Shown one piece after another: positions 11,008-30,313 of a stretch of DNA of 64,000 nt. Each line of letters begins with the position of its first letter. Position 1 is the first letter of the stretch. Made by a program: the position numbers and the translations under genes. A model generated the notes under the pieces. That model saw only the letters and a program-made list of their open reading frames with translations. It did not search any database and was not told where the DNA came from. The DNA comes from Allostella vacuolata. Its GTDB lineage: Bacteria; Pseudomonadota; Alphaproteobacteria; ATCC43930; Allostellaceae. The DNA is taken from NCBI GenBank assembly GCA_006739055.1, contig AP019702.1, positions 5,295,388 through 5,359,387 on the forward strand. The letters run 5' to 3'.

Positions 11008-11152
11008 GGCCGATCCCGATCGTCGCATGGATTCGCCAGCCGGGCGATCCCGCGACAAGATCGCCGTTGACGCCACCCTTCCGCCCCTGTAGCCACCGCG
11101 GCGGGACACGCCCCCCCACCGGGGCGCTGCCATTCTGAAAGGGATAGGCGAG

Positions 11153-26601: not shown

Positions 26602-28032
26602 ATGGCATTCAAGGAATACGACCAGTACGACGCGCTGGGCCTGGCGGCCCTGGTCCGCGACCGCAAGGTGTCGGCCGCCGAGGTGCTGGAAGCGGCGATC
26701 GCCCGGATCGAGGCCCTCGACGGCAAGCTGAACGCCGTCGTCCATCGCCAGTTCGACCGCGCCCGGCGCGAGGTCTCGCTCGGCCTGCCGCAGGGGCCGT
26801 TCCATGGCGTGCCGTTCCTGCTGAAGGACCTCTACGCGCTGGACGCCGGCGAGCCGAGCGGCAACGGCAGCCGGCTCTATGACGGTTTCCTGGCCGACCA
26901 CAATTCCGAGATCGTCACCCGCTTCCGCAATTCCGGGCTGGCCGTGCTGGGTCGCAGCAACTCACCCGAATTCGGCCTGGTGCCGACCACCGAGCCCCGC
27001 CGCTTCGGCCCGACCCGCAACCCATGGAACCTGGATCGCTCCGCCGGAGGGTCGAGCGGCGGCGGGGCCGCCGCCGTTGCCGCGCGGATGGTGCCGATCG
27101 CGCACGCGACCGATGGCGGCGGATCGATCCGCATTCCGGCATCGGCCTGCGGCCTAGTCGGGCTGAAGCCGACCCGGGCGCGTTGCCCGATGGGCCCGGA
27201 CGTCGGCGAGGGGTGGAACGGGCTGTCGGCCGGGCTGGTGGTCAGCCGCAGCGTCCGCGACACCGCCGCCGCCCTCGACGCGGTCGAGGGGCCGGCGGTG
27301 GGCGACCCCTATGCCTGCCCGCCCAAGGCCCGACCCTTCCTGGCCGAGGTCGGCGCCGCCCCCGGCCGCCTGCGCATCGCGCTGTCGACCGCGGCACCGG
27401 CCGGGGTGACCGTCGATCCCGACTGCCTCGCCGCCGTGCACGACCAGGCGCGGCTCTGCGCCGAGCTGGGCCACGTGGTGGAGGAAGCCGAGCCGCCGAT
27501 CGACCATGAGGCGCTGTGGGAGGCGTTCGCCGTCATCGTCGCCTCCAACGTCGCCAGCACCGTCAACTTCCGCGAGGCGGCGCTCGGCCGCCGCGCCCGG
27601 CCGGACGAGCTGGAGCAGGCGACCTGGGCCTTCTGCGAAATGGGGCGGAGCAAGGTGAGCGGAGCCGACTATGCCCGCGCCGTCCTCATCATCCATTCCC
27701 TGGGCCGGCGCCTCGGCAGCTTCCTGGAGCGGTACGACGTGATGCTGACCCCCACGCTCGGCAAGCCGCCCGTCCGGCTGGGGGAGATCGACATGATGGA
27801 CATGGACCAGGAGCGCTACCGCGATCATCTGCGCGCCTATATCCCCTTCACCCCGGTCGAGAACGCGGCCGGGCTGCCGGCCATCTCGCTGCCGCTCGCC
27901 TGGAACGCCGAAGGGCTGCCGATCGGCGTCCATTTCGTCGGCCGCTATGGCGACGAGGCGACCCTGCTGCGCCTGGCGGGCCAGCTGGAGCAGGCCCGGC
28001 CCTGGGAAGGCCGGCGGCCGCCGATCTCCTGA
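26602..28032 (+). CDS. amidase (amidase-signature family)
   Basis: A 476-residue amidase-signature enzyme. The Ser-cisSer-Lys triad is visible: lysine in '[13 protein letters not shown]' (about residue 76), cis-serine in '[15 protein letters not shown]', and nucleophilic serine in '[16 protein letters not shown]'. The family hydrolyses amides including fatty amides, mandelamide-type or carbamate substrates. The motif does not reveal which. GatA is unlikely, as no gatB or gatC is adjacent. The 3' end overlaps the convergent asd gene by 88 bases. Confidence 0.93.
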
Positions 28033-29117
28033 CCGGCGGCCGCGGCCGGCTGCGGCAGCAGCCGTTCGGCGATCTGGACGGCGTTCAGCGCCGCCCCCTT
28101 CAGCAGCTGGTCGCCCGCCACGAACAGCATGAGCGAGCGGCCCGACGGGTCGCTCGCGTCGTGGCGGATGCGGCCCACCAGCACGTCGCCCTGGCCCGAC
28201 GCCTCGCGCGGCATCGGGAAGCGGTTGCCCGCGACATCATCGACCAGCCTGACGCCGGGCGCCGCCGCCAGGGCCGCCCGGGCCTCGTCCAGGCCGACGG
28301 GCCGCTCGAACTCCACGGTCATCGCGATCGAATGGGCGCGCAGCACCGGCACCCGGACGCAGGTGATGCCGATCCGCAGGTCCGGCTCGCCCAGGATCTT
28401 GCGCAGTTCCTGCATCACCTTCGCCTCCTCGCCGTTGCTGCCGGTCGCGGGGTCGACGGCGGTGTCGTGGCTGAAGAGGTTGAACGCGTAGGGATGGGCC
28501 AGGACGGTGTTGGCATAGTGCCGGCCCTCCAGGTAGGCGGCCGTCGAGGCGCGCAGCTCCTCCATCGCCGCCGCACCCGCCCCGGAGGCGGCCTGGTAGG
28601 TGGATGCCATCACCCGTCGGACCGGGCTCAGCCGGTGCAGCGGCCATAGCGGCACGGCGGCAATGATGGCCACGCAGTTCGGGTTGGCGATGATGCCGCG
28701 ATGGCCCTCGGACGCGCCGGCATTCACCTCCGGCACCACCAGCGGCACGCCCGCATCCATGCGGAAGGCCGAGGAGTTGTCCACCACCACGGCACCCGCC
28801 GCCGCCGCGATCGGCGCGAAGTGCCGGGAGATGCCGCTGCCGGCCGAGAACAGGGCGAGATCGATCCCGGCGAAGCTGCCTTCGTCCAGCGGCTCGACCG
28901 CCAGGGTCTGGTCGCGGAAGAGCACCGTCCGGCCGGCCGAGCGGGGCGAGGCCAGCAGGCGCAGGCGGGACAGCGGGAAGCCGCGATCCTCCAGGCAGGC
29001 GATCAGCTCGACGCCGACGGCGCCGGTGGCGCCGACGATGGCGACGGCAGGGCTGGCGGGAAGGCGCCGGTGGCTCGACCCTTCGGCCGCCGCGGCGAAA
29101 TGCTGGTCCGGACTCAT
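27945..29117 (-). CDS. asd: aspartate-semialdehyde dehydrogenase
   Basis: The 390-residue enzyme reduces aspartyl phosphate to aspartate semialdehyde in the lysine/threonine/methionine/diaminopimelate pathway. It has the NADP-binding 'VAIVGATGAVGVELIACLEDRGFP', the catalytic cysteine in 'IIANPNCVAII' and 'STYQAASGAGAAAMEEL', closer to the plant/cyanobacterial subgroup than to the usual 'NPNCST' form. The start at 29117 lies nine bases after AGAGG; an ATG at 29126 is adjacent to it and less suitable. Residues after about 355 (past 'LNAVQIAERLLPQ') are an unusual Arg/Ser/Ala tail overlapping the amidase gene. A promoter, leader ORF and hairpins lie upstream. Confidence 0.93.
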   Translation of the reverse strand: MSPDQHFAAAAEGSSHRRLPASPAVAIVGATGAVGVELIACLEDRGFPLSRLRLLASPRSAGRTVLFRDQTLAVEPLDEGSFAGIDLALFSAGSGISRHFAPIAAAAGAVVVDNSSAFRMDAGVPLVVPEVNAGASEGHRGIIANPNCVAIIAAVPLWPLHRLSPVRRVMASTYQAASGAGAAAMEELRASTAAYLEGRHYANTVLAHPYAFNLFSHDTAVDPATGSNGEEAKVMQELRKILGEPDLRIGITCVRVPVLRAHSIAMTVEFERPVGLDEARAALAAAPGVRLVDDVAGNRFPMPREASGQGDVLVGRIRHDASDPSGRSLMLFVAGDQLLKGAALNAVQIAERLLPQPAAAAGQEIGGRRPSQGRACSSWPARRSRVASSP

Positions 29118-29171
29118 GCTCCTCATCCTCTCGTTCGGGCATGGAGCCGGCGGAGGGAGGGCCCGGAAACA

Positions 29172-29268
29172 CCGAAGGGCCCCACCATTCCGGCGGGGCC
29201 CTTCGGTTTCCTGCTATGTCGCCTTACGTCAGCGCACGCGCAACCGAAGCCGCCCCGCGGAGGGCTTC
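29172..29268 (-). promoter_or_regulatory. probable transcription attenuator in the asd leader
   Basis: In transcription order (minus strand), arm 1 is GAAGCC (29268-29263) and arm 2 is GGCTTCGGTT (29252-29242 region). Arm 3 is AACCGAAGGGCCCC (29208-29195) and arm 4 is GGGGCCCTTCGG (29183-29172). Arms 1 and 2 pair over 6 bp. Arms 2 and 3 pair over 8 bp (CTTCGGTT/AACCGAAG). Arms 3 and 4 form a 12-bp stem ahead of a short TGTTT run. The pairings are mutually exclusive, as in amino-acid attenuators. Arm 1 overlaps codons 13-14 of the leader ORF. The weak T-run is the main doubt. Confidence 0.55.
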
Positions 29269-29306
29269 ATGGTGGTGGCGGTGCGCTTGAGCGTCTGGGC
29301 GAACAT
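29229..29306 (-). CDS. putative 25-residue leader peptide of asd
   Basis: The frame starts at the ATG at 29306, only about ten bases after the -10 element, so the mRNA would be leaderless or nearly so. Codons 5-14 read TLKRTATTMK, rich in Thr, Lys and Met, which are end products of the aspartate pathway that asd serves. The stop at 29229-29231 lies between arm 2 and arm 3 of the hairpin system. The remainder is basic ('GRLRLRVR'). Function as a regulatory leader is inferred from composition, position and structure. No homologue is recognised. Confidence 0.5.
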   Translation of the reverse strand: MFAQTLKRTATTMKPSAGRLRLRVR

Positions 29307-29315
29307 GCGGGCCGG

Positions 29316-29345
29316 AAGATAGGAACCCGCTCGGCCCGCTGTCAA
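29316..29345 (-). promoter_or_regulatory. sigma-70-type promoter for the asd leader
   Basis: On the minus strand a perfect TTGACA (29345-29340) and TATCTT (29321-29316) are separated by 18 bases. Transcription would begin at about 29309-29306, at or just before the ATG of the leader ORF. It is the best consensus promoter I found in the window. Confidence 0.65.
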
Positions 29346-29438
29346 TGCGCAAAGGGCTGCGATGCGCAGAGGGCGGGCTTGCACGCGGCCGGCAAGGCGC
29401 GCCTATGATGACGGGCCAATGACAATCGGAGGAACCCC

Positions 29439-29627
29439 ATGACCTACCGAATCCATGCAGCCGACGCGACGGGGGCCGTCGGCCTCGAACGCGCCAACGC
29501 CGTCGCCGCCCTGAAGAAGGCCCGCGAGCTCGAGGCCGCCAGCTACCGCAACGTGCGGGTCATCGACCCCGAGGGCCACGAGCACGACGTCGAGGAGTTC
29601 GCCCAGTCGGTAGCCAAGCCGTCCTAG
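29439..29627 (+). CDS. small soluble protein of unknown function
   Basis: A 62-residue protein, 'MTYRIHAADATGAVGLERAN' onward, with a predicted helix 'AVAALKKARELEAASYRNV' followed by a beta-like 'VRVIDPEGHEHDVEEFAQ'. A strong ribosome site, GGAGGAACCCC, precedes the ATG. This makes it a credible gene despite its size. I do not recognise a named family. Similar short 'RV.D..G....V.EF' proteins occur in alphaproteobacteria as hypothetical proteins. It is followed 17 bases later by the phosphatase gene and may be co-transcribed. Confidence 0.7.
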   Translation: MTYRIHAADATGAVGLERANAVAALKKARELEAASYRNVRVIDPEGHEHDVEEFAQSVAKPS

Positions 29628-29644
29628 GGCCACTGCCCCGCGGC

Positions 29645-30313
29645 ATGGTCAAGGGACCGACTCGACGCGCCCTGCTGGCGGCGGCGATCGGCCTGGGTCT
29701 CGCGGCGGGCCAGCCGTTGCAGGCGGCCGGGCGCCTCCGGGCGCTCGGCGCCGATGAGCCGGCCGGCGCGGCCCTGATCGAGCGGCTGCGCCAGGGCGGG
29801 CTCGTCCTCTTCTTCCGCCATGCCGATACAAGAGGGATGCCCTGCGACCGGACCTTCCGGCTCGGCGACCGGGACGGCCAGCGCAACCTGTCGGAGGCCG
29901 GGCGGGAGCAGGCGCGCCGGATCGGCCAGGCCATGCGGCAGATGCGGATACCCTTTGCCCGGCCAGTTCTGGCCGGGCCGGTGTTCCGGGCGCGCGACAC
30001 GGCCGAAATCGCATTCGGCGTCGACCGGGTGGCGGTGACCGACGCGCTGCTGGCCGACGATTATGCGGGCGGCCGCCTGGAGGAGGTGCTGGACGGGCAT
30101 CGGCGGCTGTTCGCCGAGGCGCCGCCGCCCGGCACCAACCGGGTCCTGGTCGGCCACCGCACGCCGGCGATCATGGTCCTGGGCCCCGCCGTCGGCGGCG
30201 ATGCCCTGCCGGAAGGGGCCGCGATCGTCCTGGAGCCGGCCGGCGACCGGCCGGGGATACTGGGCATCCTGGCGGCCGCCCCCGTCGCCGGGGGCGGCTT
30301 CCATGGGTGTTGA
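29645..30313 (+). CDS. exported histidine phosphatase family protein
   Basis: A 222-residue protein with a twin-arginine-like N terminus ('TRRALLAAAIGLGLAAGQPLQA') and a histidine-phosphatase fold. 'GGLVLFFRHADTRG' is the variant RHG motif, with the catalytic histidine kept and Gly replaced by Ala. 'NLSEAGREQARRIGQAM' is the helix after it, and 'VLVGHRTPAIMVLG' holds the second catalytic histidine. 'GPVFRARDTAEIAFG' supplies the expected arginine. It probably acts in the periplasm on an unknown phosphate ester. The ribosome site is weak. A 17-bp tandem repeat starts within the last codons. Confidence 0.85.
   Translation: MVKGPTRRALLAAAIGLGLAAGQPLQAAGRLRALGADEPAGAALIERLRQGGLVLFFRHADTRGMPCDRTFRLGDRDGQRNLSEAGREQARRIGQAMRQMRIPFARPVLAGPVFRARDTAEIAFGVDRVAVTDALLADDYAGGRLEEVLDGHRRLFAEAPPPGTNRVLVGHRTPAIMVLGPAVGGDALPEGAAIVLEPAGDRPGILGILAAAPVAGGGFHGC

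Follow-up and report, generated by a model that had tools for sequence, protein, structure and literature searches.

The asd locus and its leader

The 64,000-nucleotide stretch of the Allostella vacuolata genome that was analyzed (the window; its organism, a Stella/Allostella genome, is called Stella below) carries asd, the gene for aspartate-semialdehyde dehydrogenase, on the minus strand at 27945..29117. This enzyme stands at the branch point to lysine, threonine, methionine, and isoleucine (and diaminopimelate). The product scored 360.7 bits against TIGR01296 (asd_B; cut-off, 324.2). Its likely start, by comparison with the fetched loci (given as L-numbers) L003, L004, L032, and L033, is the ATG at 29117, which opens the conserved sequence MSPDQHF, and the ATG at 29126 is a possible earlier start. 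The genome holds a second, canonical asd (G000:C1:4576435-4577460; L210) that is 49% identical and has no leader of the type described here, and none of the eight canonical asd paralogs sampled had one. A tblastn search of the asd protein against plasmids returned one distant Collinsella record only. Elsewhere in the window, the Rfam serC leader (RF00517), a known alphaproteobacterial element, was matched with 47.6 bits at 11099-11151 on the plus strand.

All features of the asd leader lie on the minus strand. The 25-codon frame described at the outset upstream of asd was found at 29229..29306 (MFAQTLKRTATTMKPSAGRLRLRVR; ATG at 29306, stop codon TGA at 29231-29229), and the name asdL is proposed for it. 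The candidate control codons, Lys7-Arg-Thr-Ala-Thr-Thr-Met-Lys14, occupy 29265..29288. A near-consensus promoter, TTGACA-N18-TATCTT, had been noted ahead of this frame; it is in place (−35 at 29340..29345, −10 at 29316..29321) and is the sole sigma-70-like site in the 1.5 kb from 28500 to 30000, where 0.0 were expected from shuffles. The leader ATG lies 9 nt past the −10 element, and the transcript is predicted to start at this ATG or 1 to 3 nt before it.

The minus strand of the leader region folded better than 200 of 200 shuffles (z = −4.87), and six arms were assigned to it. Arm 1 (GAAGCC; 29263..29268) overlaps codons 13 to 15 and is predicted to compete in Stella for arm 2 (GCGGGGCGGCTTCGGTT; 29242..29258), which also lies within the leader ORF and has arm 1 or arm 3 as its partner. 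The segment first taken as arm 2, GGCTTCGGTT, falls inside 29258-29242, the full arm being longer. A conserved unpaired motif (GACATAGC; 29213..29220) separates the leader stop codon from arm 3 (AACCGAAGGGCCCCGC; 29193..29208), of which the segment described earlier, AACCGAAGGGCCCC, begins at 29208. Arm 3 can pair with arm 2 or with arm 4 (GTGGGGCCCTTCGGTGTTTCC; 29165..29185, containing the earlier segment GGGGCCCTTCGG), and the 3:4 pairing forms a terminator-like hairpin with a weak T-run. Besides the longer arm 2, two elements had been overlooked, namely arm 5 (GGGCCCTCCCTCC; 29164-29152) and the asd Shine-Dalgarno (SD) sequence GAGAGGA (arm 6; 29132-29126). The SD sequence is conserved in two Stella relatives, L004 and L032. 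Arm 5 (GGGCCCUCCC) has two possible partners in Stella, arm 4 (GGUGGGGCCC) and the SD region.

Conservation of the leader and a wider family

Leaders were collected upstream of asd orthologs at 61 fetched loci, from which 35 representatives were taken at <80% similarity; the 61 include several MAGs with possibly wrong labels (some titled Marinimicrobia). A close relative was Stella sp. ATCC 35155 (family Allostellaceae in the tree), and the other lineages were Acetobacteraceae, Roseomonas, Rhodobacterales (Paracoccaceae), Rhizobiales (Rhizobiaceae), Caulobacterales (Caulobacteraceae), Sphingomonas, Parvibaculaceae, and Steroidobacteraceae. On an asd tree of 115 rows, leader presence required 6 state changes, compared with 29.4 for shuffled labels. 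The proposal that asd is the target of the leader is supported by the conservation of leader codons and pairings in relatives (below); the downstream gene matches TIGR01296, and the order of leader and gene is the same in the 61 relatives. At four further loci (L047, L055, L077, and L082), the promoter and a GGGGCC-type hairpin sequence are kept before asd and the leader frame is lost.

The preliminary description had placed transcription start at or next to the leader ATG. The same geometry was found in 34/35 representatives, with 6 to 11 nt between the end of the −10 element and the ATG, and the promoter score was ≥8 in 23/35 compared with 1.9% of shuffles. SD-like 4-mers were found ahead of the leader ATG in 3/35 (absent in 32/35) and ahead of asd in 31/35. 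The leader ORF is therefore very likely leaderless or nearly so, its 5' end being predicted from the promoter position.

Leader length was about 22 to 30 codons across the 61 loci. Threonine made up 17.6 to 19% of leader residues and lysine about 11% (17.6% and 11.1%, respectively, in the 61 leaders). When the peptides were aligned, Thr or Lys occupied 50 to 91% at seven codon positions and 71 to 91% at six. Synonymous exchange was observed at these conserved positions (ACC/ACG/ACT for Thr and AAG/AAA for Lys), and the KRTATTMKP of the window becomes KRTATTKKP, KRTTMTKKP, or KRTTTKKP in Stella relatives. From this conserved enrichment, the regulatory codons appear to be those for products of the controlled pathway. 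Stalling had been proposed at Thr, Met, and Lys codons; of these, the Thr and Lys codons are conserved, with synonymous change. Methionine was rejected as a general signal because non-initiator Met accounts for 3.8% of residues in the representatives and is not conserved by position.

The pairings were examined with an alignment-free arm-swap test, in which own arms were compared with permuted arms over the 35 representatives (2000 permutations). Own arms paired better for 2:3 (z = −7.7; 0/2000) and for 3:4 (z = −7.0; 0/2000), and less markedly so for 4:5 (z = −3.4; 1/2000) and 5:SD (z = −2.7; 11/2000). For seven of eight unrelated arm pairs used as controls there was no own-arm preference. 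The exception was leader start with arm 5 (z = −2.4), and for this reason the values for 4:5 and 5:SD are deemed modest and supportive rather than conclusive. On the alignment, 92.4% of 3:4 cells were paired, with 22 two-sided changes compared with 4.2 in shuffled data. The 2:3 helix did not exceed shuffles on the plain MAFFT alignment, which was attributed to slippage of the helix register. Taken together, covariation among the representatives supports the mutually exclusive 2:3 and 3:4 pairings. Three exclusive pairings had been claimed; the third, 1:2, is present and predicted in Stella, and its covariation over the 35 representatives was not significant (z = −1.5; 147/2000). Comparison of relatives for stems and codons, suggested at the outset as a check, thus returned compensatory change in 2:3 and 3:4 together with conserved Thr and Lys codons.

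A covariance model (R1), built from asd leaders only, was used to search 289 genomes from the class and 299 from the phylum. The gene following R1 matches was most commonly asd, then thrS (15), a DapA/NanA-fold gene (8), and isochorismatase-type hydrolases (3). These counts are lower bounds owing to strict filters, and the last three names rest on short queries (for a 70-residue DapA query, NanA scored slightly above DapA). Assignment of the downstream gene is unreliable for matches that do not belong to the asd, thrS, or dapA-like groups. The Thr and Lys fractions were 0.19 to 0.25 and 0.10 to 0.11 for asd leaders, 0.22 and 0.025 for thrS leaders, and 0.05 and 0.10 for dapA-type leaders. In this comparison leader codon content is seen to follow the target gene, and no other single argument speaks as strongly for the codons as the sensor.

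Thr-rich leaders on the asd-leader scaffold precede threonyl-tRNA synthetase genes at L121, L126, L130, L135, L136, L138, L142 (for example, MSALFVTTTTTTTTTANGGPGGGCTS), L145, L155, L156, L170, L173, and L191; no Rfam family was found for the thrS leaders. Leaders with Lys codons on the same scaffold precede a DapA/NanA-family gene at L140, L179, L181, L192-L195, and L204. Some genomes carry several leaders, an example being the genomes of family f143, in which leaders of the asd, thrS, and dapA types occur.

Proposed switch, its output, and alternatives

The conserved codons and covarying pairings in relatives strongly support the ribosome-mediated logic first suggested for this region, and with the promoter position and leader frame established by the same sequence comparison, we regard the region with high confidence as a ribosome-mediated attenuator of asd. 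The second asd copy, which has no such leader, counts against this reading. In the proposed mechanism, a leaderless transcript would begin at the leader ATG. A shortage of threonyl- or lysyl-tRNA would stall the ribosome on the Thr or Lys codons, where it would cover arm 1; arm 2 could then capture arm 3 ahead of the synthesis of arm 4, and expression of asd would follow (ON). When both tRNAs are plentiful, the ribosome would reach the stop codon and cover arms 1 and 2, permitting 3:4 to form and turning asd off (OFF). In an untranslated leader, 1:2 would form, followed again by 3:4, and asd would be off. Expression of asd is thus probably turned on when the cell is short of threonine or lysine.

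The predicted folding of the nascent RNA is consistent with this order of events. In Stella RNA folded up to arm 3, the number of arm-3 bases paired to the leader was 3.7 in the absence of translation, 20.0 when the ribosome was stalled at Lys14, and 0 when it had reached the stop codon. The corresponding means over the 35 representatives were 9.2, 12.8, and 0; in other lineages, separation of the untranslated state is therefore less clear. When the complete leader was folded at equilibrium (partition functions), 3:4 won in nearly all cases at any ribosome position, stalled and unstalled states were not separated, and the ON fold was less stable than the OFF fold by roughly 1 to 17 kcal/mol. 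The switch must therefore be kinetic, and the folding data suggest a kinetic order of pairing as in a classical attenuator.

The weak T-run, named as the main objection in the preliminary description, is indeed weak in the window. Among the 35 representatives, the run after 3:4 was rich in 20 (≥5 T) and poor in 11 (≤3 T in the 8 nt after the stem), with Stella intermediate (T8max, 4). The full architecture is retained in lineages with 0 to 3 T following the stem, which have in addition an SD-sequestering hairpin that differs by lineage (CGTCTC/GAGACG, CGTTCC/GGAACG, CGCCTCC/GGAGAGGCG, or CGCTCTCT/AGAGAGCG). For T-poor leaders, predicted SD accessibility rose from 0.16 in the OFF state to 0.48 in the ON state (P = 0.002); for T-rich leaders it was unchanged (0.38 versus 0.41; P = 0.73). 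The distance from stem to ATG was 49.5 nt in T-poor and 39.5 nt in T-rich leaders (P = 0.008). Since two further arms, able to hide or free the asd SD, are found in leaders that lack a T-run, the element is considered to extend to the asd start codon. In the OFF state, termination would occur at 3:4 where the T-run is good; where it is not, arm 5 would probably be released and would then sequester the SD of asd. In the ON state, arm 5 would be held by arm 4. These folding predictions suggest that the output is probably translational in some lineages and terminator based in others. Read-through into asd past a terminator, as originally proposed, is accordingly retained as a possible output and is disputed as the sole one because poor-T-run lineages have the SD-sequestering arms.

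For Stella itself, the output may be termination, SD sequestration, or both. By its predicted folds it may belong with the poor-T-run lineages whose arms can sequester the asd SD. Predicted SD accessibility rose from 0.45 (OFF) to 0.90 (ON) in the window and from 0.46 to 0.93 in L032; for the Stella relative L004 the prediction ran the opposite way (0.83 OFF, 0.46 ON), and the Stella arm 5:SD hairpin alone was no better than shuffles. A purely transcriptional switch, in which 3:4 would terminate transcription intrinsically even with its weak T-run and arms 5 and 6 would be incidental, is considered slightly less likely than not. The very strong 3:4 stem, the T8max of 4, and the many relatives that end 3:4 with good T-runs speak for it, while the architecture retained in lineages with 0 to 3 T and the rise in SD accessibility in the two Stella-type leaders speak against it. 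The fullest reading combines one leaderless Thr/Lys architecture for asd, with sister versions for thrS (Thr) and dapA-like genes (Lys), evolutionary switching between terminator and translational output, and a six-arm relay (1:2/2:3/3:4/4:5/5:SD) that would hide or expose the asd ribosome-binding site, with Stella being translational or dual in output; the case for this whole is evenly balanced.

Two further explanations were considered. The peptide itself could be the function, with an ordinary terminator or anti-SD hairpin following a constitutively translated small protein gene and no regulation of asd by translation. Precedents are the Sinorhizobium meliloti candidate peptide SEP5, which when tagged was seen by Western blot (PMC10117765), and peTrpL, which has trans functions (PMC7298713). 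The leader peptide, however, is not conserved apart from the Thr/Lys positions and a few residues encoded by the pairing arms, there is covariation between arms within the ORF and arm 3, which lies beyond it, and codon content tracks the downstream gene in the thrS and dapA-like versions, so this explanation is considered improbable. Still harder to credit is a riboswitch or protein-bound leader that senses lysine, threonine, or another ligand directly. The unpaired RCATAR motif between the stop codon and arm 3, found in 13/35 relatives compared with 0.95 expected, could be taken in its favor, but conservation is at the codon level with synonymous change, and a search of Rfam with the asd leader gave no match at the gathering score and none of note in a permissive search.

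Relation to known leaders

Attenuation by a ribosome is a known kind of control, represented in proteobacteria by the thr/trp/his-type transcription attenuators such as E. coli thrL and trpL. The asd leader shares with these the pathway-product codons, the mutually exclusive pairings, and a predicted arm 1 inside the leader; it differs in its asd target, in the use of two amino acids (Thr and Lys), in its leaderless start, and in the several lineages that lack a T-run and have extra SD arms. The new aspects would be the asd target, the dual Thr/Lys sensing, the leaderless start, and the probable lineage-dependent output. The earlier statement that no asd attenuator of this type has been described agrees with our search of the open-access literature, in which none was found, and with the lack of an Rfam family; Naville and Gautheret 2010 (PMC2965389) do not mention asd.

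The S. meliloti trpL/rnTrpL attenuator likewise has a leaderless ORF at the RNA 5' end in an alphaproteobacterium, but with Trp codons and trpE as the target (PMC7298713, PMC10117765). The actinobacterial leuA LEU element and translational T-boxes resemble the asd leader in having a candidate leader peptide and/or SD sequestration before amino acid genes, and differ in their pseudoknot or tRNA-binding architecture, their targets, and their phylum (PMC1262725). The nearest description is that of SEP5, a translated Thr/Lys-rich small ORF (6 Thr and 3 Lys codons) in the 5' untranslated region of an S. meliloti "aspartate dehydrogenase" gene. A role as leader peptide was tentatively put forward for this ORF, which was reported to be conserved only in Sinorhizobium (PMC10117765). 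Compared by description only, it is a similar ORF in a comparable place, for which no RNA structures, mechanism, or family were described (PMC10117765). A Neorhizobium leader (L064; 6 Thr and 2 Lys) is similar in kind. SEP5 probably belongs to the asd-leader family if the gene downstream of it is asd. A widespread, Rfam-absent family on asd, thrS, and dapA-like genes would, if true, make leaderless leader peptides a general device of Alphaproteobacteria and some Gammaproteobacteria, and would provide a natural set in which one sensor is wired to a transcriptional or a translational output.

The asd-leader scaffold was also matched by R1 before DUF1127-like genes (L143, L144, L152, L174, L184, L186, and L190) in related alphaproteobacterial genomes of 7 to 9 Mb, where the leaders have no amino acid run. 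These may be related to the S. meliloti DUF1127 uORF attenuator (PMC12218461), which resembles the asd leader in that attenuation depends on uORF translation in Alphaproteobacteria and is unlike it in having a ribosome-binding site and in its proposed signal, which is the efficiency of translation instead of an amino acid (PMC12218461). Leader-like frames with the hairpin scaffold of the asd leader precede drug-type ABC transporters (L141, L171, L177, and L209) and acetyltransferases (L125, AAC(3)-like; L175; L182; and L196), and these are possible attenuators that sense translation inhibitors. Outside the class, Thr-run leaders were observed before isochorismatase-type cysteine hydrolases (L151, L154, and L166).
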